Below are positions 2,227-29,128 of a stretch of 30,263 nucleotides of DNA, one piece after another; position 1 is the first letter of the stretch, and each line of letters starts with the position of its first letter. A program made the translations under genes and the position numbers. This DNA is from a virus: positions 1 to 30,263 of IMG/VR virus record IMGVR_UViG_3300037225_000038. One strand, given 5' to 3'. The notes under the pieces are model-generated. The model ran no database searches. It was not told the origin of the DNA and worked only from the letters and a program-made list of their open reading frames with translations.

Positions 2227-2736
2227 TTAAGAGGTTTTCCGGACAATGTATGTATACACAGTCGAACTGGCGCCACCAGGCCGGGGAATCGCAAGATAAT
2301 CAACCCCTCCGGATGTTTTCAAATATGCCTCCGCAAGACTGGTAATCGAATTGTCGGCCGCTATACACTGCACTTGAATAATCATACAGTTTGCGCGAGT
2401 CAACGCACTGTTGATGGACGATAGTGCAATCAATGTTGGAGTACTCCCCGAATCGGTTGCGCCACCATAAAAGGTATTGCTTGAGTGCCAGCCAAACGAA
2501 AAAAACCAACGTATCCACTGCGTTACTATCCGAAAAAGCCGGTTCATGTTGTTGAAAATAGGAATGCCGTTACCAGGCCATCCGCTTGCCGGGACACCTG
2601 TTTGCATGGTCGCCGCCACATTCGGCATGCCGCTTTCGCTGTCGGTGATGTTGTTGTCCGTTCCATCACTGTTGACGGCAATGTCCGGATAAATAGGGGT
2701 CCCCGCGTGAATTGCATCTTGCACTAAGTTTGACAT
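2227..2736 (-). CDS. Tail or baseplate-distal protein of unknown function
   Basis: A 169-aa protein between the DUF2612-like baseplate gene and the fibre. The N-terminal half contains a Gly/Pro-rich segment (TGVPASGWPGNGIPIFNNMNRLFR) and a Trp-rich stretch (TQWIRWFFSFGW). The C-terminal half is Ser/Thr-rich and beta-like, ending in VYTYIVRKTS. There is no recognisable enzymatic motif. Position suggests a structural adaptor between baseplate and fibre or a short fibre. The stop is followed by a hairpin cluster at 2150-2222. The start ATG is 3 nt from the end of the upstream gene, consistent with translational coupling. Confidence 0.75.
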   Translation of the reverse strand: MSNLVQDAIHAGTPIYPDIAVNSDGTDNNITDSESGMPNVAATMQTGVPASGWPGNGIPIFNNMNRLFRIVTQWIRWFFSFGWHSSNTFYGGATDSGSTPTLIALSSINSALTRANCMIIQVQCIAADNSITSLAEAYLKTSGGVDYLAIPRPGGASSTVYTYIVRKTS

Positions 2737-2739
2737 ATT

Positions 2740-3414
2740 CTACTCCGTAAATAAAGGTGTCGCTAATTGTCCGCCGTTTACGTCCGTTGAATTATTCCCG
2801 AATCCTTTTCCGTTTGAATACCACGGCGTCGCGCTGTCCACGGAAAAACAGAAAGGCCGCGCTGTGCTCTTTTGAATCTCCAAAGCAACGCCGGCCGTTT
2901 TTACTTTGTCCATTGTCTGCTGAATAAGCCAAGTTGCAATAGGTAATGGGTTTTCTGGATTTTCCAAATTCAGGCATACCGTCGCCGGCTGTATTTCGAT
3001 AAGGTCGATTTTTGGATGATTGTTTCCCGGAGTCGTGATTATCTGTTGAAGTGCTGCGACAAGGCGCTCAGGCTCGCCCTGGGAGGCATTCATTTGAATC
3101 TTTGCTTTTATGGAGAGTGCGTAATCAACATTCAATAATGATTGCCTGGGGGCCCCAACAATTGAACCGATGTCGTCGAGAACAGGATTAACATTGCTTG
3201 CCCACCCCTGATCTGCTCCATAAGCAAGCGCTGAATCAATCCCGCGATAGGTGTAGACAATGAAAGCTGCATCTTCCAGCTCCTGCACTTGATCTGCAAA
3301 CGCCCGCATTTCCTTTGCAAAATTCGACTGGTCGCTGTCCGCATTCTTTTTTAGAAATTGCGGAGTCAGGCTTTCGGCCCGGTTTGCATAGTCAGTGATT
3401 GGTGTCATCCCCAT
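2740..3414 (-). CDS. Baseplate protein, DUF2612-like (functional analogue of Mu gp48/P2 gpI)
   Basis: A 224-aa protein directly after the baseplate J gene, whose stop overlaps this start in a TAATG. The N-terminal half is helical and acidic (FADQVQELEDAAFIVYTYRGID). The central GADQGWASNVNPVLDDIGSIVG segment resembles the LDxxGxxxG-type motif of DUF2612 and related proteins that sit beside baseplate J in Mu- and P2-like phages. The C-terminal part is probably beta-rich. The likely role is to link the wedge to tail fibres. The assignment rests on synteny plus the motif, so the family name is tentative and the structural role more secure. Confidence 0.75.
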   Translation of the reverse strand: MGMTPITDYANRAESLTPQFLKKNADSDQSNFAKEMRAFADQVQELEDAAFIVYTYRGIDSALAYGADQGWASNVNPVLDDIGSIVGAPRQSLLNVDYALSIKAKIQMNASQGEPERLVAALQQIITTPGNNHPKIDLIEIQPATVCLNLENPENPLPIATWLIQQTMDKVKTAGVALEIQKSTARPFCFSVDSATPWYSNGKGFGNNSTDVNGGQLATPLFTE

Positions 3415-4580
3415 TATGGCCCCACAACCGTTACAGTTACGGCGCCCGGCTCTGGATATTCATTGTACGCCATGGCAATATCGTCTGTCTGCATACCACC
3501 CGACGCCTTGCTCTGCCGAATTGTTATCTTATCAACGCCCGAGCATGCCGCATAAACCGGCCCAAGCCAGCGGTCAATGAGTAAGTCTTGTCCGGTTTTG
3601 AATGTGGCCGCGTATTCCTGGATAGCTGCGGTTATAAGGTCTTCGTAATTTGTCGGCAGAGTTTCTTCTGAATATCGTGTGATCGTAACCTCGACGGCGA
3701 TAGCGACAGGAGTTGGCCGAGTGAATTTAATGGTTTGGTTGTTTCCCTGCGAGTCCTGGACAACCACAGAAGCGGTTCCCGTCAAGGCGATTCCACCCGC
3801 CTTGCATGCCCAAAGAGCGTTTCCTATATCTCCTCCGGTCCCGCCGACAACCATAATTTCTATCGAGTGCGGAGGGCGCCCGTCGCTATCCGTGGTGTCT
3901 GTTGGATTTTCAAATCCGCGGCATAGCGTTACGTTCGGCACGTTGTTTTTAATTCTTGCAACAATCGCGTCGAGAGCAGATGCGCCGATCACCTGTAGGC
4001 TCTGCGCGCGACGGATACGCGCCTCTGCCACAGTTTCTTCCAGGCGCCCCACGTTGCCGGCAAGAGCGTTTTCAACGCTGTCCCATCCGGTTATCTGTGT
4101 GCTGATAGTCCACGTGGTGCCGATGTCCACCGGAACAGGTCCGGCAACAACCGCTTGGAAAACACCATCAATGGAACCGCCGCCCGGAATAGTAACGGCC
4201 TCCGTCAGCGCAAAAACGTTACCTGACGGGTCTGTGATAAGATAACCCGCCGATAAAGGTACGCCAAATCCTTCGTTCGTAGCACACTGGCAAATAACCT
4301 CTGATTTGGCTGCGGGAAGCATTTGTAGGCCCACCAGGTCCATGATGTCCGGGAAGCTGGCGTCATCACCCCTTGCTGGGAAAGGTGCGTTATATACGCC
4401 CGCAAGTGCGTCCCAGGCATCTTTGAGCTGCTTTGCCATAATTCCGATGCGGAACCCGATCACCGACCCGCTGCCGGTGTTTGGGGTGCCGTAAATGGCT
4501 TGATACGCGTCCACCAAGTCGTCGGTGATGTTTTGCAGGGTCGGCACCACAAAGCCAGTTGATTGTATTCCGTAACTCAT
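3414..4580 (-). CDS. Baseplate J-like wedge protein (Mu gp47-like)
   Basis: A 388-aa protein with the features of the baseplate J/gp47 family: an N-terminal helical start (LQNITDDLVDAYQAIYG), a DLVGLQMLPA segment, a central beta domain (GVPLSAGYLITDPSGNVFAL, IPGGGSIDG), the conserved ALAGNVGRLEETVAEARIRR stretch, then the IVARIKNNVPNVTLCRGFEN and SIEIMVVGG core. Proteins of this family assemble the wedge that links the hub to the fibres and triggers sheath contraction. Length is normal for the family. It starts 2 nt after the stop of the gp46-like gene and is followed without a gap by the DUF2612-like gene, the standard order in Mu-like baseplates. Confidence 0.93.
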   Translation of the reverse strand: MSYGIQSTGFVVPTLQNITDDLVDAYQAIYGTPNTGSGSVIGFRIGIMAKQLKDAWDALAGVYNAPFPARGDDASFPDIMDLVGLQMLPAAKSEVICQCATNEGFGVPLSAGYLITDPSGNVFALTEAVTIPGGGSIDGVFQAVVAGPVPVDIGTTWTISTQITGWDSVENALAGNVGRLEETVAEARIRRAQSLQVIGASALDAIVARIKNNVPNVTLCRGFENPTDTTDSDGRPPHSIEIMVVGGTGGDIGNALWACKAGGIALTGTASVVVQDSQGNNQTIKFTRPTPVAIAVEVTITRYSEETLPTNYEDLITAAIQEYAATFKTGQDLLIDRWLGPVYAACSGVDKITIRQSKASGGMQTDDIAMAYNEYPEPGAVTVTVVGP

Positions 4581-12634: not shown

Positions 12635-13285
12635 TTACTTTTTATCCAGACTGCGAATGTTTCGCATTTTTTCTTTAGTTGCTTCTGTGTGTTTCCATCC
12701 CTTTTGGGCGCGTATTTTTTTTCGAGTTTCTTCCGTTACAATTCTTCCTTTAAGGGATTTTCCTATCGCTTTTTTGTGAGCGTCACTAAGCAAAATTCCT
12801 TTATGAGCATCACTTAATTTATTTTTTTGGTCTGTAGTCCAATGTTTTCCTTTATTCCAAGGAGAAAATCCTTTTTTAAAAAATGACACACTTGCCTTCT
12901 TTGCTATTTCTGGATTTTTCATTGGGTTTTTATTCCCCAAGCGAGAATAACTTATTGCTTTTCTTGCACTATCTGAAACTTCATGTCCTAAAGAATACCC
13001 CTCCCCGCCTTCTGTCTTATTTGTTAAACAACATCCAGATTTACGCTCGAACGCAATCCAGTCACGTTCCCGTTCTTTCCAAACAGATTCGTCGCACTGC
13101 TCAAGAATTTGCAGTATTGGATTAAAGCCTTGTTTTAAAAGAGATGTAATCCAATGCGTTTTGTAGCAAGGATATTTATCAACTAAATGTTGACAATATC
13201 TGCGATATGGGTTATCCGCCTTTCCTACATATCGCACTTCGAGAGTGCGCGGATCGCAAAGAGCATAAATAAAGGTGGTATTCAT
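12635..13285 (-). CDS. GIY-YIG homing endonuclease with NUMOD3-like repeats
   Basis: A 216-aa free-standing endonuclease. Residues 1-95 are a GIY-YIG nuclease domain: the IYAL (6-9) and RYVG (18-21) strands are the variant GIY and YIG motifs, PYRRYCQH follows, and WKERERDWI plus LTNKTEGGEG supply the usual Glu/Asn region. Residues about 100-216 are DNA-binding NUMOD3-like modules (LGNKNPMKNPEIAKK, LSDAHKG, SDAHKKAIGKSLKG, TEETRKKIRAQKGWKHTEATKEKM). It sits between two neck genes, with start overlapping the upstream stop (ATGA) and stop touching the downstream ATG. This is typical of an intergenic homing insertion, as in SegA-like T4 proteins. A deleted relative lies at 26326-26657. Confidence 0.92.
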   Translation of the reverse strand: MNTTFIYALCDPRTLEVRYVGKADNPYRRYCQHLVDKYPCYKTHWITSLLKQGFNPILQILEQCDESVWKERERDWIAFERKSGCCLTNKTEGGEGYSLGHEVSDSARKAISYSRLGNKNPMKNPEIAKKASVSFFKKGFSPWNKGKHWTTDQKNKLSDAHKGILLSDAHKKAIGKSLKGRIVTEETRKKIRAQKGWKHTEATKEKMRNIRSLDKK

Positions 13286-16766: not shown

Positions 16767-17399
16767 TTACTTGGCTTCCTGCTTTTTGGTGAAGGAGTCC
16801 TTTATGTTTTTCTTCCACATGTCGTTGATGTCGGGTTTTTCCTTCGACACACAGGCGTCGCACTTGCACCCGGAAACGTGCTCGGTGCTGTCATTTTTGG
16901 GATCGTTAATGGCCCTGCGATTTGCTGCGGCAGCTTGGTCAACAACGTCGTTCTTGACAGTCGAGAGTGCGGCGTCATACCACACCTTGACAGCGGTAAG
17001 GTCTTCTTTTTTTACGGCGGCAATTTTGTCCTTGGCTTCCGGGAACGCCCTGGTCGCAACGGCCAGCATGATTTCCGCGTCGGAAAGGCTGTCGATTTTC
17101 TCGACTTCGGCAACGTCCAAATGCGGTTTTGCCTGGGCAACGAGTTCCGCTCGCGCCTTGCCTGCTGCGGTGATCTTTCCGGGAAGTGCGGCGATTTCGG
17201 TATTGGCCGCATCGAGTTTGGTTTTGGTCGCGTCGCGCTCCGCGGTCATTGCGTCGAGCTTGGTCTGGACAGCGGCAACAGCGGTGATGCTGTCTTTTTT
17301 CAGCGTTTCGATGGTCGCCAGAGATTCGGCAAAGGCTGCGGCGACTTCCGGTGCCTGATCGTTATACACGATACCTTTAATGGTTATGGGAACGGGCAT
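16767..17399 (-). CDS. Nested internal-start scaffold protein
   Basis: An in-frame ATG at residue 265 of the protease fusion is preceded by GAAAGGAGCCGACCA, a canonical Shine-Dalgarno (GGAG, 7 nt spacing) that is better than either upstream start. The resulting 210-aa protein begins MPVPITIKG and contains only the helical scaffold: VQTKLDAMTAERDATKTKLD, the AKPHLDVAEVEKIDSLSDAEIMLAV stretch and the C-terminal KNIKDSFTKK. This is the arrangement of lambda C/Nu3, where scaffold is made in excess from inside the protease gene. The internal start is inferred from sequence alone. Confidence 0.7.
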   Translation of the reverse strand: MPVPITIKGIVYNDQAPEVAAAFAESLATIETLKKDSITAVAAVQTKLDAMTAERDATKTKLDAANTEIAALPGKITAAGKARAELVAQAKPHLDVAEVEKIDSLSDAEIMLAVATRAFPEAKDKIAAVKKEDLTAVKVWYDAALSTVKNDVVDQAAAANRRAINDPKNDSTEHVSGCKCDACVSKEKPDINDMWKKNIKDSFTKKQEAK

Positions 17400-18191
17400 T
17401 GGTCGGCTCCTTTCAAAAGGTGAATTATCTATTGAGTCTTTATGAATTGTCAATTCGCTTACGTGATAAGTTGAATGGAATGAATTTTCGCCTTCGCCAT
17501 GTTGAACTGTATATCTGTCTCCTCCATGTCTTGCAGTTATTCTTCCTTTTAAACCTGTTTTTTTTGCGGTCACTCTCGTTCCAAATTCAGGATGCCGTCC
17601 ACTTCCTGGGCCACCGTCTTCTTTGAAATTCGGCTCTCCACATTCGTAAACGTCGGCGGCGTCAAGGTGAAGGCTTGCCACATTCCCGGCGCGCCCGAGG
17701 TCGCAGATAGCGACGTGGTTGTAGCGACGGTTTGTCTGTCTGCGGTCGTATGCCTGGCCCTGCCACACTCCGGGTTCTTCGATTTCGTCACAGACATATC
17801 CGGCAGAGAGTTCGCGCTTGCCGCCGTTCACTTCGGCAATGGCGTTTTTATCGTTGATTGTGATGGAGGTAGAAAGAAGTTGGCCGTCGCATTGAGTCGT
17901 TTCTCCTGTGAAACCTACTTGAAACTGCTTTACGTTGTCAGGATTGACGCTTCGTGTGGAGGGGTGGTTATTCGTGACCGGCTTCATCTTCAGGGTGTTT
18001 ACGGAGTCGGCTTTTGCGAGTTCTTCCGGGTCTACGAGTTCGCGAACAATCTTTCCGCACTCGTAGTATTCCAGGATGCCCGAGCGCGCAACAACCGCGG
18101 TGCCCTGCAAATATCCGTCATCGGTTTGCTTGATTGACCCGACAATGCGGGCCTTATCTATGCGGGCTACGTCTTTTTTGATGGTTGGCAT
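16767..18191 (-). CDS. Prohead protease-scaffold fusion, DUF2213 family
   Basis: A 474-aa protein if started at MPTIKKD. Residues 1-180 are a DUF2213 serine protease domain: TNNHPS (His76) and RELSAGY (Ser129) are the likely catalytic residues, and RRYNHVAICDLGRAG is the conserved end of the fold. A glycine-rich linker (EDGGPGSGRHPE, 191-202) leads to a small inserted basic beta domain (about 205-250). Residues 265-474 are a helical scaffold (Ala/Lys/Glu coiled coil) with a C-terminal CKCDAC motif. The frame is open to an ATG at 18245, but that would place an intrinsic-terminator hairpin inside the coding region, and the family-like protein starts near 18191. The alternative start cannot be excluded. 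It is the first gene of the capsid-tail operon. Confidence 0.88.
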   Translation of the reverse strand: MPTIKKDVARIDKARIVGSIKQTDDGYLQGTAVVARSGILEYYECGKIVRELVDPEELAKADSVNTLKMKPVTNNHPSTRSVNPDNVKQFQVGFTGETTQCDGQLLSTSITINDKNAIAEVNGGKRELSAGYVCDEIEEPGVWQGQAYDRRQTNRRYNHVAICDLGRAGNVASLHLDAADVYECGEPNFKEDGGPGSGRHPEFGTRVTAKKTGLKGRITARHGGDRYTVQHGEGENSFHSTYHVSELTIHKDSIDNSPFERSRPMPVPITIKGIVYNDQAPEVAAAFAESLATIETLKKDSITAVAAVQTKLDAMTAERDATKTKLDAANTEIAALPGKITAAGKARAELVAQAKPHLDVAEVEKIDSLSDAEIMLAVATRAFPEAKDKIAAVKKEDLTAVKVWYDAALSTVKNDVVDQAAAANRRAINDPKNDSTEHVSGCKCDACVSKEKPDINDMWKKNIKDSFTKKQEAK

Positions 18192-18199
18192 TTGGTTCC

Positions 18200-18242
18200 C
18201 AAAATAAAAAATGGGCTCCAGGCTTTTGGCCTGAAACCCATT
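18200..18242 (-). terminator. Leader hairpin with U-tract, terminator or attenuator before the capsid operon
   Basis: In the minus-strand RNA the arms at 18242-18229 and 18223-18210 pair over 14 bp, including two G-U pairs, around a CAAAA loop. The same DNA on the plus strand would contain two C-A mismatches, so the structure favours minus-strand RNA. The right arm is followed directly by a TTTTATTTT tract. It lies between the promoter at 18298-18326 and the likely start at 18191. That makes it a transcription attenuator or a remnant upstream terminator. Confidence 0.8.
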
Positions 18243-18297
18243 CATGGTCCCTCAAAAGGAGGTCATCGAATTAGGGTGCTACTGTCGCGTTGATTAG

Positions 18298-18796: not shown

Positions 18797-19030
18797 GAGA
18801 ATACAAAACAATAATAGGACAAATAATCGGAGCTATAACAACGGGATCAATCCGTCTCTCCGCTTCGGCGGGCTTCTGTTGCGTGCGTGAAACCTTTGCG
18901 TGCCGAAAACAAAAAGTTCCGAGCAGTCTTTTTAATGCTGTCTTAGCCGAGACGATTATCCCGGCGTTAGAATTAAAATTGCGGGAATTCATACCTTACC
19001 TCCATGTTGTTAAATATAACAGTGAATGCT
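18797..19030. other. Stretch without a confident gene
   Basis: This 230-bp stretch follows the 76-aa gene. It contains a CCGC-TTCG-GCGG tetraloop hairpin near 18860. On the minus strand, a GGAGGTAAGGT ribosome site lies directly before an ATG at 18992. That opens a 99-aa frame (MNSRNFNSNAG...) running to 18693, antisense to the end of the 76-aa gene. The composition of that frame is not convincing and it has no recognisable motif. A long plus-strand 3' UTR or a small RNA ending at the terminator is an alternative reading. Confidence 0.4.
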
Positions 19031-19055
19031 CCACGGGCACAAGGCCCGTGGTTTT
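19031..19055 (+). terminator. Intrinsic terminator of the 76-aa gene transcript
   Basis: CCACGGGC (19031-19038) and GCCCGTGG (19044-19051) form a perfect 8-bp stem with an ACAAG loop, followed by TTTTCTCT in the plus direction. It isolates the 76-aa gene from the next rightward promoter at 19099-19128. Confidence 0.88.
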
Positions 19056-19098
19056 CTCTCGTAGGAGATCATAAAATATGAATAATGCAATAATTTCC

Positions 19099-19128
19099 TT
19101 GCATTTCCATTTTAATAATATTATACTA
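19099..19128 (+). promoter_or_regulatory. Promoter of the secreted cargo gene pair
   Basis: TTGCAT (19099-19104) is separated by 18 nt from TATACT (19123-19128). The block CTTGCATTTCCATT, including the -35 element, is repeated exactly before the plus-strand gene at 29179. It lies 30 nt upstream of the first signal-peptide gene, directly after the terminator at 19031-19055. The flanking DNA is strongly AT-rich. Confidence 0.7.
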
Positions 19129-19158
19129 TTATTATACAAACAACTAAGGAGGGTTCCG

Positions 19159-19536
19159 ATGAATACGAGAAAGATGATTTTGATTTTTTTGTGCGCTTTG
19201 GCAATGCAGGGACGCGCGGAATTATGCGACACAATGACGGTCAGTCCAGATGCGGGCGGAAGTAATTTTGCAAGTTATGCCCAGCTAATTCAGGTCGTAA
19301 ACGGGTATCTCATATTTCAGTACAAGGGCGAATGGTCTGGCCCTGACGGATTGTTTTACTATCCCATTGCTTTCAAAATCAAAAGCGCAAAAGCAGCCGC
19401 GACGCTAACCGAGGGCACTCCGTTGTGGCGAATACTACCTTCGGGAACCGTAATTTACAAAATAGGCACAGTGGAAATGAAAACGATTAGCGGGTTTTCC
19501 CATGAAGTAAGGCTATACGAAATTCTGCACTATTAA
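19159..19536 (+). CDS. Small secreted protein of unknown function
   Basis: A 125-aa protein. The ATG at 19159 is chosen because AAGGAGGG lies 6-7 nt upstream and the protein then begins with a classical Sec signal peptide: MNTRK, a hydrophobic core (MILIFLCALA) and a probable cut after GRA near residue 21. The frame is open to 19078, but that extension crosses the promoter. The mature part is beta-rich (YAQLIQVVNGYLIFQYKGEW, LWRILPSGTVIYKIGTVEMKTI) with one cysteine close to the cleavage site. It is followed after 37 nt by a second signal-peptide gene. I do not recognise the fold. As a moron-like cargo gene it may act in the envelope during lysogeny (inference). Confidence 0.78.
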   Translation: MNTRKMILIFLCALAMQGRAELCDTMTVSPDAGGSNFASYAQLIQVVNGYLIFQYKGEWSGPDGLFYYPIAFKIKSAKAAATLTEGTPLWRILPSGTVIYKIGTVEMKTISGFSHEVRLYEILHY

Positions 19537-19573
19537 GGGACAGATTTTAGCTCACACTTAACCGGAGGGCACT

Positions 19574-20182
19574 ATGAAAAAGATTTTCGTCCTACTGTTC
19601 CTGGCAGGCCCGGCGTTCTCGCAAATACCAGAGCTGCATGACACCACTGTTCCCTATTTTGGTGATATCCTTCAATTTCACGAAATAAATTACACCGGTA
19701 TTAGCGAAACATTCCAGGCTTTCCGAATTGGTAAGGCGTGGCCCTCCATAGCCCAAACACCCGACACGATGCTGGTAGAAATATCCACCAACCTTCACAA
19801 TTTCCCTGAGTACAATTATTTGAATGAGGACGGAAATCCTAATGCCGGGTGGAAAGTCAGTTTTGGAGGTTTGGATTCGTTGTTGACTATGCATAGATCA
19901 AACGGAAAAAACGAGGACACGCTTTTAGGTTTTTACCAGGGGCCAAACTGGGGAATATTTATGTTGGTGGGGAACGCCAAATATGCGTTTAGTTTTGATA
20001 ATTGGCCCTCTACGATCCGCGACCTTTTTAATTCGCTGAAACCAACCACATCAACCATACACCCTCGGGTGTCGTCGATGTTGGTTAGAAACGTTCTGGA
20101 GAGGTCTTATTTGGTCAATGGCAGGCTTATTCAAAACCAAAACAGCATGCGGTTCGTTCCTAACCGGATTTTTGTACGATAG
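19574..20182 (+). CDS. Secreted protein with a possible C-terminal sorting-like tail
   Basis: A 202-aa protein with an N-terminal signal peptide (MKKIFVLLFLAGPAFSQ, probable cleavage after AFS) and CCGGAGGG just upstream of the ATG. The mature part has Trp/Phe-rich beta segments (GWKVSFGGLDSLL, GFYQGPNWGIFMLVGNAKYAFSF). The last 35 residues read RNVLERSYLVNGRLIQNQNS and then RFVPNRIFVR. The pattern resembles the YDxxGRLV...GxYxV end of type IX-like secretion tails found in Bacteroidota and Fibrobacterota, but the match is loose. It shares a transcript with the 125-aa gene and converges with the minus-strand gene ending at 20160, overlapping it by 23 nt. Confidence 0.78.
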   Translation: MKKIFVLLFLAGPAFSQIPELHDTTVPYFGDILQFHEINYTGISETFQAFRIGKAWPSIAQTPDTMLVEISTNLHNFPEYNYLNEDGNPNAGWKVSFGGLDSLLTMHRSNGKNEDTLLGFYQGPNWGIFMLVGNAKYAFSFDNWPSTIRDLFNSLKPTTSTIHPRVSSMLVRNVLERSYLVNGRLIQNQNSMRFVPNRIFVR

Positions 20183-20372
20183 GCAGATCAAGTTCGGACG
20201 CTCGGGTAAATTCAAAGATGGTCACTTTTTTTTCTGACAAGGCAAACTGTATTTTGCATATCCCGCCCTGAGAACATTCGGCGTGAATATCAATACTGCC
20301 GGTGTGCTTACGGTCTTCCACCGAAGTTTTTAAAAGTCGCGCAACGATTTCGGTAGCTTCAATGGCCTTCAT
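20160..20372 (-). CDS. Small protein of unknown function at the end of the glycosyltransferase cassette
   Basis: A 70-aa protein. Its start overlaps the end of the methyltransferase gene by 14 nt, consistent with coupling. The sequence has an N-terminal helix (AIEATEIVARLLKTSVED) and beta strands (IDIHAECSQGGICKIQFALSEKKVTIFEF) with two cysteines. No motif was recognised. The ribosome site is weak. It is the last leftward gene before the plus-strand cargo genes. Confidence 0.6.
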   Translation of the reverse strand: MKAIEATEIVARLLKTSVEDRKHTGSIDIHAECSQGGICKIQFALSEKKVTIFEFTRASELDLPIVQKSG

Positions 20373-20895
20373 TTTTAAACCGTCCAGGCGTTTTCTTTAC
20401 GAGCCACGACGTGTCAGTGAAAACAAAATCAGGCTCCCCAAACATTTCATCCACGGCCTTTTTTACAAGTATCCCATCGCTATCGTAGTAGTCATGTCCG
20501 CCGACATATCCGCCCGGAATTACTTTGGAGTAATAATTTAAAATGTCTTTCTTTACCGCATCGTAAGTATGTACAGCGTCAATATAAACAAGGCTGAAAA
20601 ACGATTCGGGAAATTCTCCGACCGCGTCGTCTGTCTTTTTGCTAACTAAATAAATATTTCTTCCCTCTGTATTTTTTATAAAAGATGCTTTTGTTTTTTC
20701 GTCTTCCAATGGGTCAACGCAATGCAACTCGTCAAAGAATAGAGATAAAACACTTGCAGATTCCCCAATGTAAGAACCTAACTCTATCGCTGGTGTGTGT
20801 CTTATCTTGGGAGGTAACGACAAAAGGAGTGTTATCAAACCATCAAGCAATTCGTAACTATTCCTATAAAATTTTTCACGTTCGATCTTTTGCAT
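20359..20895 (-). CDS. Class I SAM-dependent methyltransferase (Methyltransf_24-like)
   Basis: A 178-aa Rossmann-type methyltransferase. Motif I is IELGSYIGESA (37-47), the acidic residue after beta-2 is HCVDPLED (Asp61), the beta-4 motif is LVYIDAVHTYDAVKKD (102-117), and the beta-5 region is IPGGYVGGHDY (126-136). The YIDAxHxYxxVKxD and GGxxxxHDY signatures are typical of the Methyltransf_24/cephalosporin-hydroxylase-like group found in glycan and natural-product clusters. The substrate is probably a sugar or small molecule, not DNA. It starts one base after the stop of the third glycosyltransferase. Confidence 0.87.
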   Translation of the reverse strand: MQKIEREKFYRNSYELLDGLITLLLSLPPKIRHTPAIELGSYIGESASVLSLFFDELHCVDPLEDEKTKASFIKNTEGRNIYLVSKKTDDAVGEFPESFFSLVYIDAVHTYDAVKKDILNYYSKVIPGGYVGGHDYYDSDGILVKKAVDEMFGEPDFVFTDTSWLVKKTPGRFKNEGH

Positions 20896-20896
20896 A

Positions 20897-21709
20897 TTAT
20901 TTCTTTCCTGGCCTCATAACAGGACAGCCGATTTTATCCCTGCATCCTTCGCATTGGTCGTTTGAGCAGCAGTCAAAAGTCCACCCCCCAAGTTGTGTCC
21001 CATTGTAATGGTGTATTGTAAAAGGCATATCACCAACAGGGGTTGGGTGATTGAAAAAATATTCTTTCGGAAATATGTTTACTTCTGGATATTTGTTTAT
21101 AATTCGTACAAGTGGGCATACTGTAATATCGCAAACATCCCACATGTGGGCCGGATAGCGCCCACTTTTTACCATGTCGGCATAAACGTCCAGGATATAC
21201 TCGTACATTTCTTTGTTGATTTGTGATTTTGGCGGAGCGCCGAAAAATGCCGTACATACCACTTTTTGAGGTTTGGGTATTGGCGGTCTTTTAAAAACAA
21301 ATTCTGGAAATTCAAGACCAGCAGCCCCCCGGTCCCTCTCGTATCCACAAACATAAGGCATTGACAAAAATTCGTCTCTGATATTATTTATCTTTATATC
21401 AATGTCAGCGTAAAATCCACCATAGATAAAATTAATAACGAAACGAAGAATGTCCCCCTTCATCACGAGGGGTAATCTCTCGTCTTTTATCATGGCAAAC
21501 ATTAATTTATCCACCTCATTTGTTAAGTCGATGAATTCGTAATGATTGTCTTTTTTTCGAGCAATTTTTCCCTGTTCTGTAATTGTCCAGAACCAATAAT
21601 CAAATCCATTTTCTCGGCTATACTTTGCGGTTGCGGCCATGAAAGACGCTAACCGCTCCGTCATTGGGTCTATGCCCGGCCAGATTTGATGTATTATTTT
21701 TGGTATCAT
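20897..21709 (-). CDS. GT32-type glycosyltransferase with a Cys-rich C-terminus
   Basis: A 270-aa protein with the Gly_transf_sug architecture. The N-terminus is IPKIIHQIWPG, the conserved acceptor/donor segment is VMKGDILRFVINFIYGGFYADIDI with the DXD motif at 102-104 (DID), and the C-terminal FTIHHYNGTQLGGW motif completes the domain. It is a retaining, metal-dependent nucleotide-sugar transferase by family. The last 30 residues add a cysteine-rich tail with five Cys (DCCSNDQCEGCRDKIGC), unusual for the family and possibly metal-binding. The start has GGAGAT close upstream and lies 92 nt inside the 3' end of the bifunctional gene. Confidence 0.88.
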   Translation of the reverse strand: MIPKIIHQIWPGIDPMTERLASFMAATAKYSRENGFDYWFWTITEQGKIARKKDNHYEFIDLTNEVDKLMFAMIKDERLPLVMKGDILRFVINFIYGGFYADIDIKINNIRDEFLSMPYVCGYERDRGAAGLEFPEFVFKRPPIPKPQKVVCTAFFGAPPKSQINKEMYEYILDVYADMVKSGRYPAHMWDVCDITVCPLVRIINKYPEVNIFPKEYFFNHPTPVGDMPFTIHHYNGTQLGGWTFDCCSNDQCEGCRDKIGCPVMRPGKK

Positions 21710-23060
21710 TTTCTATCTCCACAAATAAATAATTTTTCGCAGTAATTGGCTTGTCATCAACCCTGAAAAACTTGCTAACTGTTTTTTCGCCAAAATGCCG
21801 TCCGTCGATCCACCAATCTTCAAACGGCTGCCTTACATCGTTTATAGCTATATTTCCCGCAACAAGGATATATCCAGCTTCCGATAAAATTCTCCGGCTC
21901 TCACTCCTCGCAAGTTCGCATTCCCGCGCAGTTGCCAGTTCCCTATTGTAATAATCATGTTCATAAGTAATTATTGAAAACCTTGTTTTGCATTTAAGTA
22001 TCTCAATAAGGCATTCGAGGGTCTTGGTGTTTGGGTCAATATCGAGTGACAAATAGTCAACCCTGTCAACCCCATTAAGTAGAGAGCAATAATCTATTTT
22101 AAGGGCGTTCCCAATTATCAAATCGCCCTTGCGCCCAGATTGAATAAACTTGTTTTTCACATCTTCGATTTCTATTGACGTGCCCTTCCAGCCAAATGTC
22201 TTTTCAAGCAGAAATGTATTAGACATAAAGACCGGGTCGTAAGCTCCTATTTCTAAAAATGATCCTTTGCCGCCCCCCATAACTGACAAAACAAATATGT
22301 CCTGCAAGGACTGTGCGTGGCTTCGACTTATTAAATTGAATCCCGGAAATGGGTATTTTAGTTTATGATTGGTAAGCAGGCTTTTGGTGTAAGTAAAGTT
22401 ATCCCATTGCTGGTTTTCCTGCGACATAACCACCCGTCGCGTCCATCCTGTTTCTGAGCAACCTTGAAAATAATGTATTGTGTTGGGAATCCTTGCGGAT
22501 CGTGGGTCAGGATAAAAATTATTTTTAGAGATAGGAGATATTTGATATTTTTTATAAAATCTAAACAACAGTGACGGACCGCAAAAGTTCATTATTTCCT
22601 TGACGGTTTTCGGCGCTCCGTAACTTTTGTATTTATCTCCTGATACTTTCAGCATGTCAAAAGTTAAGGGATGAAAGGATATTGCGCCAAGCACTCCTGT
22701 TCCGCATAAGGTTTCTCCGTCAAAGGCTATCAGGAAGGGAACGTCAAGCAACTCGTCGAAGTTTCTTAATGTTTCAATGTCGGTATCAAGATAAATTCCA
22801 CCAAACAACCTCAATATTTCAAAGCGCAATATATCTGTTTTGGCAACAACCGGCACATCAGCGTCTTGCAGGATTGTGCTTGACATATTAAGCATGAATG
22901 GATAAAGTTTTTCTGTCTTATAATTATCCCATAAAATACTTTCATATTCTCGGCAAGTTCCCTCTTGCATTTTAATAAATTGCTTTGCTGTTTCAGAAAG
23001 TGGTTTTGGCCCTATCCATATTCTGTGAATTATTTTTGGAATTATTTGAGGCTTATTCAT
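21618..23060 (-). CDS. Bifunctional GT32-type glycosyltransferase-FkbM-like methyltransferase
   Basis: A 480-aa fusion. Residues 1-210 are a GT32 domain: IIPKIIHRIWIG, the AKTDILRFEILRLFGGIYLDTDIE core with DTD at 92-94, and TIHYFQGCSETGW. Residues about 245-450 are an FkbM-type methyltransferase: SLQDIFVLSVMGGG, the SAM motif FLEIGAYDP (268-276), TSIEIED (294-300), VDYLSLDID (334-342) and IITYEHDYY. Transfer and O-methylation of a sugar by one chain is the simple reading. The last 30 residues, after the expected end at KNYLFVEIEND, are low-complexity and lie inside the 92-nt overlap with the next gene. The start overlaps the first glycosyltransferase in ATGA. Confidence 0.88.
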   Translation of the reverse strand: MNKPQIIPKIIHRIWIGPKPLSETAKQFIKMQEGTCREYESILWDNYKTEKLYPFMLNMSSTILQDADVPVVAKTDILRFEILRLFGGIYLDTDIETLRNFDELLDVPFLIAFDGETLCGTGVLGAISFHPLTFDMLKVSGDKYKSYGAPKTVKEIMNFCGPSLLFRFYKKYQISPISKNNFYPDPRSARIPNTIHYFQGCSETGWTRRVVMSQENQQWDNFTYTKSLLTNHKLKYPFPGFNLISRSHAQSLQDIFVLSVMGGGKGSFLEIGAYDPVFMSNTFLLEKTFGWKGTSIEIEDVKNKFIQSGRKGDLIIGNALKIDYCSLLNGVDRVDYLSLDIDPNTKTLECLIEILKCKTRFSIITYEHDYYNRELATARECELARSESRRILSEAGYILVAGNIAINDVRQPFEDWWIDGRHFGEKTVSKFFRVDDKPITAKNYLFVEIENDTKNNTSNLAGHRPNDGAVSVFHGRNRKV

Positions 23061-23728
23061 TTCCGTTTTCCAATCGTTTCCCGATACCAGCCGTCATCAT
23101 CCATGCCAGACCAGTGATGTATGCAGTATGCGTTCGGATATTGCTCGGGACTTATCACCTTTCCCTCTTTGCGTTGCCCCCAGGAAACAGGATAGAAATA
23201 TTCCTGCGGATAAATCTTGTCGCAGTCAAGCAGCATTTTCCCGGCCAAGTTGACGCCGTAGTCAACGATGTTTTTATTTGCATCCGCCAAGTTGCCTTTT
23301 ATTTTTTCAGCGTGAGCGCAGGCAATTTGTAAAAATAACGGATACCCTTTTGCGGAACCCACGACGGCGTTTCCTGCTATTCCGGGAGTGATACTTTTCC
23401 CACAGAAAGCGATGTCCTTTAAAAAAATATCCATCGGTTTCAAACATTCAACGTCAGTGTCCGAATAAATGCCGCCATAAAACCACACGAGCAACCAGCG
23501 CGCAATGTCCGATTTTAAAACCCAGTGCAGGTCAGGATGTCGCAGCATTTCAGCACAGATGGGCGGAAACTTATCGTAGGGCAAATCTTCGAGGCGCCAG
23601 AAACGAAAATCCCAGGCCGGGTTGCAGCGCATCCACGACGCGCGGAAAGCGTAGAACTTCGGCAAGAAGTTGTTCGGTGTGCACCAAACGAGGTGATGGA
23701 TGGGGGGGGTCATTATGTTTCTCTGCAT
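23057..23728 (-). CDS. GT32-type glycosyltransferase
   Basis: A 223-aa protein with start ATG at 23728 (MQRNIMTPPIHHLVW). The frame is open to 23812, inside the minor head gene, but similarity to the family begins only at IHHLVW. The possible ribosome site GGAGGG lies about 22 nt upstream, rather far, so the next ATG at 23713 is an alternative. The core LKSDIARWLLVWFYGGIYSDTDVE has DTD at 90-92. The end YCIHHWSGMDDDGW is the C-terminal HHW motif. No signal or membrane anchor is seen, so the enzyme is cytoplasmic. It is the first gene of the cassette directly behind the minor head protein. Confidence 0.85.
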   Translation of the reverse strand: MQRNIMTPPIHHLVWCTPNNFLPKFYAFRASWMRCNPAWDFRFWRLEDLPYDKFPPICAEMLRHPDLHWVLKSDIARWLLVWFYGGIYSDTDVECLKPMDIFLKDIAFCGKSITPGIAGNAVVGSAKGYPLFLQIACAHAEKIKGNLADANKNIVDYGVNLAGKMLLDCDKIYPQEYFYPVSWGQRKEGKVISPEQYPNAYCIHHWSGMDDDGWYRETIGKRK

Positions 23729-23766: not shown

Positions 23767-24726
23767 TTAAGCAAATATCGTCGAAAAGTCGGGATCTGCG
23801 TAGCATCTGCATTGATAATCTTGCCCCGGATGTAATTCAACGCCGGGGCCTTTTTCTATATTTTTCCTTGATTTCCATTTACCCTTGTCTGCCGCCTCAA
23901 TTGTATCGGCGTAAACGGTCGGATCATCCCACTGGCACACCTTACCGTCCATACATGCATGAGAAGGCTTTGAGTTCGGGTACTTGCCCGACGGATCACC
24001 GCGGACACGTTCATCTTCCATCGTCCGATAAATATAGCGAGTTATTCCCGCGCCGGCCTGCCGCTTCTCTGCGAGGTTCCCATAGAGTTTTGTGGTCTGG
24101 TCCCTGGCAATCAATTCCGCCCGCGTTTCCACCTTGTCGAAAACTCCCGGGCCCAGGTCTGTACTCCCGGTGATTTCGTCCGCCAGGGTCTCCCACCGCT
24201 TGCCCTGTTGGAACCCTCCCATGACTATCCGGGATATGTCACTCTGCACGTCGGACTGTACTTTGGTTATCAAATCCACGTTGACGTGAACAAACGCCTT
24301 GCTCTCTGAGGCTATCCACGGTTCAAACGAAAAGACATCCACTCCCATGACCCGCTTGGCTATCTCGTACCATTGACGGTGCGAAACGCCGTTAACGGCC
24401 ATAAAGGTACCGTTTGCAATGTCGGCTGACTGTTTGGATATGACGTCGTATTCGTTGGAAAGTAGCGATAATTGGCGGGTAAGTTCATCCGGCCAAGAGT
24501 CGGTGCGCATGCCGCCCGGACGCTCAATCTCGACAAGGCGCTGAATACCAGGCAGTTTTTCGATGATAAGGCGTTTAGCCGCCTCCTTCCATTTATCCAC
24601 AATTTCGGCCTGCAGCTGGTCGCGGTAATCCTTCCAAAGTCGATCTGGGGAACGCAATACCGGCGCGCGGGGAAAGCGCTTTGGTTTTCTTATGTGCCGG
24701 AGTGCATGTTGGAGAAGTACGTTCAT
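23767..24726 (-). CDS. Minor head/morphogenesis protein, Mu gpF/SPP1 gp7-like
   Basis: A 319-aa protein following portal. The conserved Mu F-like segment is VETRAELIARDQTTKLYGNLAEKRQAGAG (199-227), continuing with YIYRTMEDERVRGDPSGKYP and HPGQDYQCRCYADP. In this family the arginine-rich RAELIARD helix and the paired cysteines are hallmarks. Members are packaged in a few copies and assist head assembly or DNA ejection. The N-terminal 150 residues are helical. The start overlaps the stop of the 80-aa gene in ATGA. The downstream glycosyltransferase begins 39 nt after the stop. Confidence 0.9.
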   Translation of the reverse strand: MNVLLQHALRHIRKPKRFPRAPVLRSPDRLWKDYRDQLQAEIVDKWKEAAKRLIIEKLPGIQRLVEIERPGGMRTDSWPDELTRQLSLLSNEYDVISKQSADIANGTFMAVNGVSHRQWYEIAKRVMGVDVFSFEPWIASESKAFVHVNVDLITKVQSDVQSDISRIVMGGFQQGKRWETLADEITGSTDLGPGVFDKVETRAELIARDQTTKLYGNLAEKRQAGAGITRYIYRTMEDERVRGDPSGKYPNSKPSHACMDGKVCQWDDPTVYADTIEAADKGKWKSRKNIEKGPGVELHPGQDYQCRCYADPDFSTIFA

Positions 24727-24985: not shown

Positions 24986-26329
24986 TTAATTTGCTTCCGT
25001 CAATTTCCCAGGGTCTTCCTCTTCTTCCTCTGCTTCCGGAGCTTCCTTGCCTTGCAGTTTCATGTCGTATGAAAAAGAATCTCCGCCGAAACGTGCGTCC
25101 CTGATTTCTTGCGGATCGAGCACACCCATGTCGAAGTGTGCGCGGTCAATTGTTGCCTGCTTGCCCTTATTGTCCAACTGCGTCGCCAGGCTGTCTTCCT
25201 GGATAGGAGCCCAGATCAGTTTCCAGTTCGGCAATTCCTGGCCGCCGAACGGCCCCGCCTTTTGTAACTGGATAAGGCGCACAAGGCGCTCCATTGGATT
25301 TTGCGCGTGCTTGTCCCGCTGGCCTATTACCCACTCGTTGTAGTCGTTGGTTTCCTGGTCGCCATCTTTGCCGAGCCCCGCTGCCTGAATAGGGGAACCA
25401 AACAGCTTGCGGATAGGAATTTGCACGTCGGCGCTCAGCCCCATCATCAGCACCTCAATGAGGTCTTTAAGCCCCGTGGTCGTAGCACTCGTGCGGGTAG
25501 CGTCTTCTCCGTCGAGGTCAACGGCATACCCACCCATGAGGTGCCGCGTCATGTTGTTTATGACAATGCGGTTAATGACTTCGCTCTCTTTGTTTTCTGC
25601 CAGCTTTTGGGAAAGCCCCTTGATTTTCATAATCATCAAAAGAAATTCCCCGATGATATGCTCAACGTTCAGATAACTTTCTCCCAGGCCGCGTAGCCGC
25701 TGATAGATAGATTGATAAACCGAATCTCCCCACCACTGGTTCCCCACGCGGATTTCCGGCGCCACATCCACGCCGTCGAATACCAGGCATCGGCTTTCAT
25801 GCACGAAAAAACTTCTCTGGAAAGGTTGGTTTGGTGCGATTAAAAACGTTTCCGTTTCTCCGTACTTCGGATCGTTTTCGTCGAGATAATACGACATCCT
25901 GGACACTCGCCAGCGGTGGTACACGCGCAGCCTTTCAATGTCCCGGATGTTATTTTCGTCAAGCGGTTCATCCAGTAACCTTCCATCGTTTGCCATGACA
26001 ACAACAAGTGTGCCCCCGTAGCACCTTGACCATGACCAGCCGCGAGACATTTCTTGTTTGACGGAAAGGCGCTTGCATTCGTTAAGAATCAAGTTGTCGG
26101 TGTCGCCTTCAAGTGTGAACCATTTTCGGAAAGCGTCGGTAACCGGCATTTCACAGATTCGGCGCGCGAGGCCGCTGTAAGTGAATAAATTCCTGCATAA
26201 CTGTTCGTTAAGGCGGTATTCGGAAGAGAATGTTGTTGACTCTTTGCGGTCGCGGCCAAGAACCCCCAAACCTGTAACCAAGTTAGACCACGAGTCGGAT
26301 CGAAAATGATCTACTGTTTTGTTTTTCAT
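24986..26329 (-). CDS. Portal protein, DUF1073-like
   Basis: A 447-aa protein with the DUF1073 portal pattern: FTYSGLARRICEMPVTDAFRKWF near the N-terminus, the SWSRCYGGTLVVVMANDG core, HRWRVSRMSYYLDENDPKYG and VHESRCLVFDGV, followed by GLSADVQIPIRKLFGSPIQAAGLGKDGDQETNDY. The C-terminal tail is acidic (EAPEAEEEEEDPG). Twelve copies form the DNA-entry vertex and the docking ring for terminase. The start has AAGGA upstream, and its ATG overlaps the last stop of the deleted GIY-YIG gene. Length is typical. Confidence 0.92.
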   Translation of the reverse strand: MKNKTVDHFRSDSWSNLVTGLGVLGRDRKESTTFSSEYRLNEQLCRNLFTYSGLARRICEMPVTDAFRKWFTLEGDTDNLILNECKRLSVKQEMSRGWSWSRCYGGTLVVVMANDGRLLDEPLDENNIRDIERLRVYHRWRVSRMSYYLDENDPKYGETETFLIAPNQPFQRSFFVHESRCLVFDGVDVAPEIRVGNQWWGDSVYQSIYQRLRGLGESYLNVEHIIGEFLLMIMKIKGLSQKLAENKESEVINRIVINNMTRHLMGGYAVDLDGEDATRTSATTTGLKDLIEVLMMGLSADVQIPIRKLFGSPIQAAGLGKDGDQETNDYNEWVIGQRDKHAQNPMERLVRLIQLQKAGPFGGQELPNWKLIWAPIQEDSLATQLDNKGKQATIDRAHFDMGVLDPQEIRDARFGGDSFSYDMKLQGKEAPEAEEEEEDPGKLTEAN

Positions 26330-26657
26330 TTTGAACTGTCCTTTTTATGCACATCAATCATGTGCTTTCTGTATTCGGGTAATTGCCATTTTTTACTTAT
26401 TGATTCTCTTATTTTTTGCCGTGTAGCTTCTGTTCAATCTCCCGTTTTTCCCATTCAGAAATATCGCATTGCTCAAGGATTTGAAGAATAGGGTTGAGGC
26501 AGACTTTCAACAGTGTAGAAATCCAAAAACATTTATGGGTATTTCCTTTTTCAACCAAATGTTGACAGTAACGTTCATAGGGATTGTTGGATTTTCCCAC
26601 ATACCGGACTTCGAGGGTTCGTGGATCACAGAGGGCATAAATGAAGGTGGTTGGCAT
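26326..26657 (-). pseudogene. GIY-YIG homing endonuclease remnant, internal deletion plus frameshift
   Basis: The frame 26409-26657 encodes 82 residues that closely match the first 76 residues of the intact endonuclease at 12635-13285 (identical IYALCDPRTLEVRYVGK and PILQILEQCD blocks). It then stops after REIEQKLHGKK. In another frame, 26326-26433 encodes TEATRQKIRESISKKWQLPE and a basic tail, matching the C-terminal NUMOD3-like part (TEETRKKIR) of the intact copy. About 100 internal residues are missing and the two parts are out of frame. The final TGA overlaps the portal ATG, showing that the original gene ended exactly there. The remnant sits precisely between terL and portal. Confidence 0.85.
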
Positions 26658-27843: not shown

Positions 27844-28424
27844 TTTCCGTCAGGAGCCATAGTCTGTGCTGCCGGAAGTTCTGGCGGTTTCTGTGATTCC
27901 CGGCCATTGCCGGCAACTATACTTTCGCAGAGCTCTTTTGTTTTAGTATCAATGACCTGAAAAACAGGACGTTCGGTTTTAAATGGTTTCCCGTCATTCG
28001 AGTGATCAAATTTATAAGTGTTCTGCCAGTTGATTTTGTCGCGGTTGCACAAAAAGAAAATAAGAGCTACGTCTGAAGGTGGAATAAATTTTTTAGTTAC
28101 CGTTCGTTCGATGTCACCGTTGAGAAGTACACCATTAACAACCTTGCCCTTTTGCTTCGTGGAAACTTCTTCGTATTCGTAGCCGGTGCATCTTCTCAGC
28201 AGTGCCGAAACCACATCTGGCAATTCTCGGTAAAGGTGCAGGTTGTAAATCCTCTGGCCTCGTTTTAAATACCGCGAAAAGAGATGCAGGTTACGCTTGA
28301 ATGTTCCCCTATCTATGTTGAGCGTTTCGCAAATCAACTTATCTGTGGCACCCTGACAGGCAAGATTGTAAACGTCAATTTTGTCTTTTTTTGACGGTAT
28401 ATATTTTACTCCGGGTTGAGCCAT
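27840..28424 (-). CDS. terS: Terminase small subunit
   Basis: A 194-aa protein directly before terL. A helix-turn-helix (ATDKLICETLNIDRGTFKRNLHLF, about 31-54) would bind the packaging site. The central YEYEEVSTKQKG and PPSDVALIFFLCNRDKINWQNTY segments are typical of phage small terminases, in which they form the oligomerisation region. The C-terminal tail (ESQKPPELPAAQTMAP) is disordered and could contact TerL. The start overlaps the glycosyltransferase stop (TAATG), so packaging genes and the TAGT gene share a transcript. Confidence 0.88.
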   Translation of the reverse strand: MAQPGVKYIPSKKDKIDVYNLACQGATDKLICETLNIDRGTFKRNLHLFSRYLKRGQRIYNLHLYRELPDVVSALLRRCTGYEYEEVSTKQKGKVVNGVLLNGDIERTVTKKFIPPSDVALIFFLCNRDKINWQNTYKFDHSNDGKPFKTERPVFQVIDTKTKELCESIVAGNGRESQKPPELPAAQTMAPDGK

Positions 28425-29128
28425 TATCTTTCCACCTTCACCTGAGTCAATTCGCCGGTGTCCGATATATTATAATTCAAATAATTTCCCCACTTCTTGA
28501 TGATGTACTCGGTGTCAGCCTGGTACCTTGCCTTAGTTCGATAGATCGAGTTTCCGCCAGTGTTGTTTCGCCGTTCTTGAACAAATGCGTATCGGTTATC
28601 CACCAAAATTATACGATCATATAATAGGCAAGTCAAGCAAAAGTCTACGTCGACCTTGAAGTACGATGTCAAGAAGCGGTGTTTCCTCCCGACAATTCCG
28701 ATCACGCCGCCGATCCATCCTGTGAAAGAAAACGGTTTCGATGGTTTGTATTTTCTGACGTCCCAGGATTGATCGTATCCGAAACATGAAACGCCGAGGT
28801 CTTGAGCCATGATCGCAAGATTGTCAACCAGGATCGAAGGGTTCGGCTCGTGCCGGCCAGTTTCGCCGACATTACACCACATTTTCTTAATATCGTCGTC
28901 GATCATGACCACGACATCTTCAGGACAATTGTCAAGAACGTAGTTGCGGACATTTCCAAGTCCGCACACGTCGTCAGGAACCGCGGTAATTGCAAGGCCG
29001 GTATGCCGATATGATTCTGTTTCTGAGTTTGGGCACCACAATTCAGCATCCGGGAAAACAAGGTGCGAGATAATGGAGTCGGCACGGCCGCGACTTATTA
29101 TAATTTTTCTTGCATTTCCATTATACAT
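28424..29128 (-). CDS. TET-associated-type glycosyltransferase (TAGT), putative DNA-base glycosyltransferase
   Basis: A 234-aa protein. The order IIISRGRADSI, FPDAELWCPNSETESY, VPDDVCGLGNVRNYVLDN, VVMIDDDIKKMW (DDD at 77-79) is the pattern of the TET-associated glycosyltransferase family, whose phage members glycosylate modified (hydroxymethylated) bases. The region GWIGGVIGIVGRK and FKVDVDFCLTCLLYD adds the acceptor side. No TET dioxygenase, hydroxymethylase or kinase is visible in this window, so the acceptor is unknown. The start has AAGGAT about 11 nt upstream. Only 50 bp separate it from the divergent RarA/MgsA-like gene. Confidence 0.83.
   Translation of the reverse strand: MYNGNARKIIISRGRADSIISHLVFPDAELWCPNSETESYRHTGLAITAVPDDVCGLGNVRNYVLDNCPEDVVVMIDDDIKKMWCNVGETGRHEPNPSILVDNLAIMAQDLGVSCFGYDQSWDVRKYKPSKPFSFTGWIGGVIGIVGRKHRFLTSYFKVDVDFCLTCLLYDRIILVDNRYAFVQERRNNTGGNSIYRTKARYQADTEYIIKKWGNYLNYNISDTGELTQVKVER

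Follow-up and report, generated by a model that had tools for sequence, protein, structure and literature searches.

What does a phage modify when a set of apparent glycan-building enzymes is encoded amid its head genes? The question is raised by the IMG/VR virus record IMGVR_UViG_3300037225_000038, of which a stretch of 30,263 bases was analyzed (hereafter the window, meaning this stretch at its full length). The window comprises the structural half of a tailed phage and its gene order is contractile-tail-like. On the minus strand, the genes run from a TAGT-family gene through the terminase subunits, the portal, a Mu-F-like minor head protein, a cassette of GT32-type glycosyltransferases and methyltransferases, a DUF2213 protease, the cement and the major capsid proteins to the neck and tail genes. 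The cassette (20359-23728, minus strand) has the minor head gene on one side and the head protease on the other. With roughly even confidence, we read it as a late-expressed, modular glycan-assembly cassette that decorates the virion with a short glycan, that is, as a variant of phage virion glycosylation. The genes concerned and their boundaries are as follows.

23767..24726, minus strand: Mu-F-like minor head protein, upstream boundary (PF04233 E=3.6e-12; phrog_324 E=3.6e-51)
23057..23713, minus strand: GT32a, putative initiating glycosyltransferase (PF04488 E=1e-8; DTD motif)
21618..23060, minus strand: GT32b fused to an FkbM-like methyltransferase, 480 amino acids (PF04488 E=2.4e-8)
21708..22325, minus strand: FkbM-like methyltransferase domain inside the GT32b fusion (likeness to phage FkbM-like parts; methyltransferase fold)
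20897..21709, minus strand: GT32c glycosyltransferase, DID motif (PF04488 E=0.001; orthologues in contigs L042, L044 and L051)
20359..20895, minus strand: Methyltransf_24 family methyltransferase (PF13578 E=3.4e-12, 47.6 bits versus a cut-off of 26.3)
20160..20372, minus strand: small core head-operon gene, 70 amino acids, outside the glycan pathway (homologues after Mu-F)
16767..18245, minus strand: DUF2213 head protease, downstream boundary (PF09979 E=1.9e-36)

A fixed site in the head operon of one lineage

Matching DNA was recovered from two further metagenome contigs, one holding GT32a and most of the fusion (L030, 100% identity) and the other the whole cassette (L004, 99.99%), so the cassette is not an assembly artefact. 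Relative to the window, L004 lacks a single base at position 25024, towards the 3' end of the portal gene, which is probably a sequencing error.

Six relatives came up when the cassette proteins, the portal and Mu-F were used as queries (L042, a contig of 27.9 kilobases (kb); L043; L044; L045; L051, 24.2 kb; and L053), and in 6/6 of them a GT32 gene follows Mu-F. Their Mu-F proteins are 55-64% identical to that of the window, while the next relatives stand at 39% and below. Thus, all seven phages with at least 55% Mu-F identity have GT32 directly after Mu-F, as against none of 84 more distant Mu-F loci (some of them near-duplicates), 69 of which read through to the protease. Since the Mu-F search behind L044, L045, L051 and L053 took no account of GT32, the association is not circular for these four. 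Throughout the lineage, GT32 genes therefore hold a fixed place among the structural genes, the pattern sought in a virion-glycosylation system. In two of these relatives (L044:1399-2931 and L045:80-1585) the terminase large subunit is of another type than in the window and L042, next to portal and Mu-F proteins that are 55-66% identical; this is an exchange of the packaging module.

The small gene after the cassette had been counted as a cassette member in an earlier note on this DNA, made from the sequence alone, and has to be taken out of it. Its homologues (TGxIxI...CxxGGI) follow Mu-F in at least 20 loci that have no GT32, which means that the cassette was inserted between two core genes. 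Among 49 open reading frames (ORFs) at the same site in GT32-less relatives, none encodes a glycan enzyme. Very large fibre- or decoration-like ORFs occupy the site in two such relatives (L037:3125-6679 and L040:3581-8827), and the interval between Mu-F and the protease is thus an insertion hot spot. Elsewhere, Mu-F head proteins themselves bear long C-terminal extensions (568 amino acids in L054:1271-2977 and 1300 in L080:7803-11705) that look like toxin-type domains; the one in L054 is followed by a P-loop ORF (2974-4038), probably a zeta-toxin match.

Three GT32 enzymes and two methyltransferases

The earlier note had also named three GT32-type enzymes with intact DXD motifs, an FkbM-like domain fused to one of them and a second methyltransferase, all of which were borne out. 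GT32a and GT32b exceed the Pfam cut-off for PF04488. GT32c falls slightly below it (20.1 versus 23 bits), and its orthologues in L042 and L044, with which it aligns over the full length, exceed it. The DXD motif reads DTD in GT32a, DTD in GT32b and DID in GT32c, and is retained in 11/11 GT32 copies from four phages, together with DI(L/A)R ahead of it and a C-terminal H...G....G(W). From these sequence features, the three are putative nucleotide-sugar glycosyltransferases.

In the fusion, the glycosyltransferase spans approximately residues 1-212 and the methyltransferase residues 246-451. The AlphaFold model (mean local confidence, pLDDT, 78.9; predicted template modelling score, pTM, 0.52) leaves the arrangement of the two domains uncertain. 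Its glycosyltransferase domain, GT32b being the only one of the three GT32s modelled for this fold, adopts a GT-A fold, and the closest solved structures are PaToxG (Z score 19.6) and YeGT (Z 19.3), with Och1 at Z 17.0; GT32b also has the WIG motif. PaToxG and YeGT are GT32-type protein O-glycosyltransferases, the latter of which modifies tyrosine (PMC11152714). Because these nearest folds are those of effector protein-glycosyltransferases, the phage enzymes could instead modify a cytosolic protein of the host in the manner of GT32 effectors, with the later steps elaborating the sugar. We consider this very improbable: a simple effector that adds one sugar would not need three GT32s in series along with methyltransferases, and a late-operon placement is unusual for host take-over genes.

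The GT32 enzymes tested and the Methyltransf_24 enzyme have zero membrane segments (maximum hydropathy under 1.46). Such soluble transferases fit a cytosolic acceptor, either protein or DNA, better than a membrane lipid, a fit that does not choose the acceptor.

The FkbM-like domain has no Pfam match, either in the whole window protein or as a domain on its own. Since the Methyltransf_21 profile (PF05050) does not match, we file the domain as FkbM-like only. Its identity to FkbM-like parts found in other phage proteins, mostly TPR fusions, is 35-46%, and two of those proteins match Methyltransf_21 weakly (E 0.04-0.06, below the cut-off). In the model, residues 246-451 form a class-I SAM (S-adenosylmethionine) methyltransferase fold (Z 13.2 to METTL13). 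L044 encodes an orthologue of the Methyltransf_24 enzyme at 57% identity and L051 a similar gene; in L042 the enzyme is replaced. A phage protein of 627 amino acids (L027:8780-10660) joins a Methyltransf_24 domain, a TPR-like middle and an FkbM-like domain, and so pairs the same two methyltransferase types as the cassette.

The spacing of 1-4 nt or overlaps ascribed to the whole series holds inside the cassette, but not between Mu-F and GT32a. Specifically, GT32a and GT32b overlap by 4 nt, GT32b and GT32c by 92 nt, GT32c and the methyltransferase are 1 nt apart, and the methyltransferase overlaps the small gene by 14 nt, while Mu-F and GT32a are separated by 38 nt. This last distance becomes 53 nt with the GT32a start at 23713, which relatives favour, although the frame is readable from 23728 (23057-23728). 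A 'VFxGRN' tail shared by the GT32b proteins of the window and L051 was discarded as an alternate-frame reading of the overlapping GT32c start. In L044 (8221-8260), GT32b has no ATG, GTG or TTG where a start is expected and shows an ACG codon 8 nt after GGAGG.

Just inside the GT32a start codon lies a G8/C8 tract (23702..23709, minus strand), the sole run of at least 7 G or C in the window. L044 has C6 at this position, and in the two further contigs with the window's cassette DNA the tract did not vary in length. Slippage at tracts of this kind can switch genes, and this one is a possible slippage site.

Build-up and exchange of the cassette parts

The seven phages differ in what they carry at the site. 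L053 has one GT32 gene, of the GT32a group, whose stop overlaps the start of the small gene (ATGA), which indicates that GT32a can serve alone. L044 and L051 have GT32a, GT32b, GT32c and Methyltransf_24. The window has this set with the FkbM-like domain added inside the GT32b gene; the domain occurs in the window only, the GT32b orthologues in L042, L044 and L051 being without a methyltransferase. In L042, GT32a and GT32b are fused in one frame and followed by GT32c, a radical-SAM/SPASM protein and a different methyltransferase, and L043 has the same fusion before its contig ends. The joins in these two phages (L042:12379-13890 and L043:6290-7702) contain a linker with the shared motif (V/I)F(Y/F)G(K/P)N, which is also seen after GT32a in L045 (4314-5096), before the contig end. 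The radical-SAM/SPASM protein (L042:14645-15574), found within a phage glycan cassette along with a second methyltransferase, suggests a putative sugar epimerisation or C-methylation.

A midpoint-rooted tree resolved GT32a, GT32b and GT32c as three groups across phages; support for the GT32b group was moderate. GT32a, present in all seven phages, shows 57-75% identity across five of them, against 54% for L051 and 40% for L053; within the five, nonsynonymous divergence (dN) is 0.2-0.45 and synonymous divergence (dS) is saturated. GT32b (39-54%), GT32c (37-52%) and the tailoring enzymes are more diverged. The G+C content is 0.48-0.49 for GT32a, 0.51-0.53 for the phage backbone and 0.38-0.45 for GT32b, GT32c and the methyltransferases. 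This order of conservation, together with the single-gene L053, points to GT32a as an old, anchoring enzyme whose acceptor would have stayed constant, and to which exchangeable extension and capping enzymes would have been added later. The cassette is apparently under purifying selection. That, and the same site in 7/7 close phages, upholds the description of the locus in the earlier note as a dedicated glycan-building and methylating cassette in the head operon.

What the glycan is attached to

From the genes, the fold of the fusion, the motifs, the fixed site, the exchange and the conservation described above, we infer the activities of the enzymes, their order of action and the acceptor. 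GT32a, as a soluble GT-A enzyme using a nucleotide sugar, would start the glycan by linking a sugar directly to a conserved acceptor; the likeliest one is a Ser, Thr or Tyr residue of a head or neck protein that the same operon encodes. The second and third sugars would be the work of GT32b and GT32c, and the FkbM-like domain and the Methyltransf_24 enzyme would O-methylate the product. As the extending and capping enzymes differ between sister phages (none; Methyltransf_24 alone; radical-SAM and another methyltransferase), each phage would present a different surface glycan on the same anchor. A virion protein is favoured because of the late-operon position, the overlapping genes, the fixed site and the conserved anchor.

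The glycan might instead be built on DNA. A TAGT-family gene (28424-29128; PF20691 E=9.8e-7) adjoins the small terminase subunit, and viruses are reported to make DNA glycans of several sugars, according to the passage of PMC12619734 that cites Pyle 2024. In such a scheme, TAGT would place a sugar on a hydroxymethylated base, the GT32s would extend it and the methyltransferases would methylate it. However, the link to TAGT suggested in the earlier note finds no support among the relatives: the gene was found only in the window phage and not in the available records of the GT32 carriers L042, L043, L044, L045, L051 and L053, which are fragments of 5-28 kb. The available records also gave no Tet_JBP match, which counts for little since the positive control was silent as well and the genome is incomplete. 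We judge DNA hypermodification improbable.

A better case can be made for the host surface, where the enzymes would alter lipid-linked or capsular oligosaccharide precursors late in infection and so mask receptors against superinfection or the loss of progeny on debris. Surface-polysaccharide loci often contain GT32 and FkbM enzymes, a weak second match falls on Caps_synth (PF05704), and two predicted secreted proteins adjoin the cassette (19078-20182). Glycosyltransferase islands of pelagimyophages have been read by their authors as modifying the host O-antigen (PMC7029224). On the other hand, the cassette is accompanied by no flippase or other membrane protein and by no nucleotide-sugar synthase, the region has no more promoter-like matches than chance would give, and the genes are packed with overlaps into the late head operon at one fixed site across the clade. 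Modification of the host surface is thus unlikely, if less so than the DNA and host-protein alternatives. We prefer the virion as the target over DNA or the host surface on account of where the cassette lies, its lack of membrane segments and the pattern of its evolution.

Several observations count against virion decoration. An acceptor feature was sought among the phage proteins and none was identified. A Ser/Thr-rich insert of the cement protein was a promising candidate in nine phages, being seen in the window phage, L042 and L044 and absent from 5/6 of the first comparators; it was ruled out by cement proteins of similar length in many GT32-less phages (more than 50 loci surveyed), and the AlphaFold model of the protein (pLDDT 43.5) was not used. 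The GT32 family includes sugar-extending enzymes such as Och1, so the modelled fold would not choose the acceptor, and sharing a late operon does not commit a gene to acting on the virion. Distances of GT32a and Mu-F agree weakly (Mantel r 0.45, p 0.087), for which reason we did not retain a joint vertical descent of the two; some parts of the cassette have probably passed from one lineage to another. Furthermore, no phage of the group is known as an isolate. In the search for a host, GT32a and the portal had no match in 84,980 species genomes and no tRNA was found. Among 50,697 phage records, none matches GT32c, and those that match GT32a do so at only approximately 27%.

Virion decoration could extend to a serotype-like switching of glycans, which we put forward tentatively and with less than even confidence. 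An anchor transferase at a fixed head site would prime a virion protein, lineages would swap the extending and capping enzymes (the radical-SAM protein among them), and the head glycan would change accordingly, possibly turned on and off through the G8 tract.

Other features of the window

Two ORFs with apparent signal peptides (19078-19536 and 19574-20182) lie in the interval from the small gene to the protease and are read from the plus strand, against the direction of the late operon. They have no Pfam match and no similar ORF in L042 or L044, and are possible lysogeny or envelope genes. Beside them, a 46-bp hairpin-bearing repeat (19030-19075; CCACGGGCACAAGGCCCGTGG) matches L030:1016-1060 at 96%. 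The L030 copy precedes a TnpB-like ORF (L030:1133-2248) outside the window, and the repeat looks like an IS200/IS605-type end or remnant. Among the neck genes there is a GIY-YIG homing-endonuclease-like gene with NUMOD3 motifs (12635-13285), of which a short truncated copy lies between terminase and portal (26409-26657); L043 has a longer version at the latter site (2553-3113).

Relation to known systems and significance

Corndog is reportedly among the phages with glycosylated virions. Corndog, Che8 and relatives resemble the window phage in encoding glycosyltransferases thought to decorate structural proteins covalently. In mycobacteriophages, virion glycosylation has been demonstrated by Freeman et al. 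2023, as reported in PMC11256854 for Che8 and in PMC12619734 for glycans of the capsid and tail tube. Here, in contrast, the enzymes are of the GT32 type, they stand in the head operon after Mu-F, they come with methyltransferases and in one phage with a radical-SAM protein, and their parts are exchanged lineage-wide, the modification itself being predicted. The literature searched contained no description of a GT32 cassette in the head operon of a phage.

YeGT and PaToxG share the GT-A fold (Z 19-20), the DXD and, with GT32b, the WIG motif, but the phage enzymes are short and stand-alone, lie three to an operon and are paired with methyltransferases. The GT32 fold of the modelled GT32b is likewise shared with Och1, itself a Golgi membrane enzyme, a mannosyltransferase that extends preformed N-glycans. 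The TPR-FkbM proteins of aquatic phages (most of the contigs L006-L028, and Synechococcus phage S-SCSM2R) have FkbM-like domains approximately 35-43% identical to that of the window, fused to TPR repeats whereas the window's is fused to a GT32. The Gtr serotype-conversion cassettes of temperate phages are also phage-borne sets of glycosyltransferases. They include a membrane flippase and membrane transferases, neither of which is present in the window cassette.

Glycosylation of the phage particle has been demonstrated in few phages. A clade with one GT32, with three, or with three and different tailoring enzymes at one site is a natural series, which lets one ask of each sugar and methyl group whether it serves immune or receptor shielding, stabilizes the capsid, promotes adhesion to mucus or particles, or helps to evade capsid-sensing host defences.

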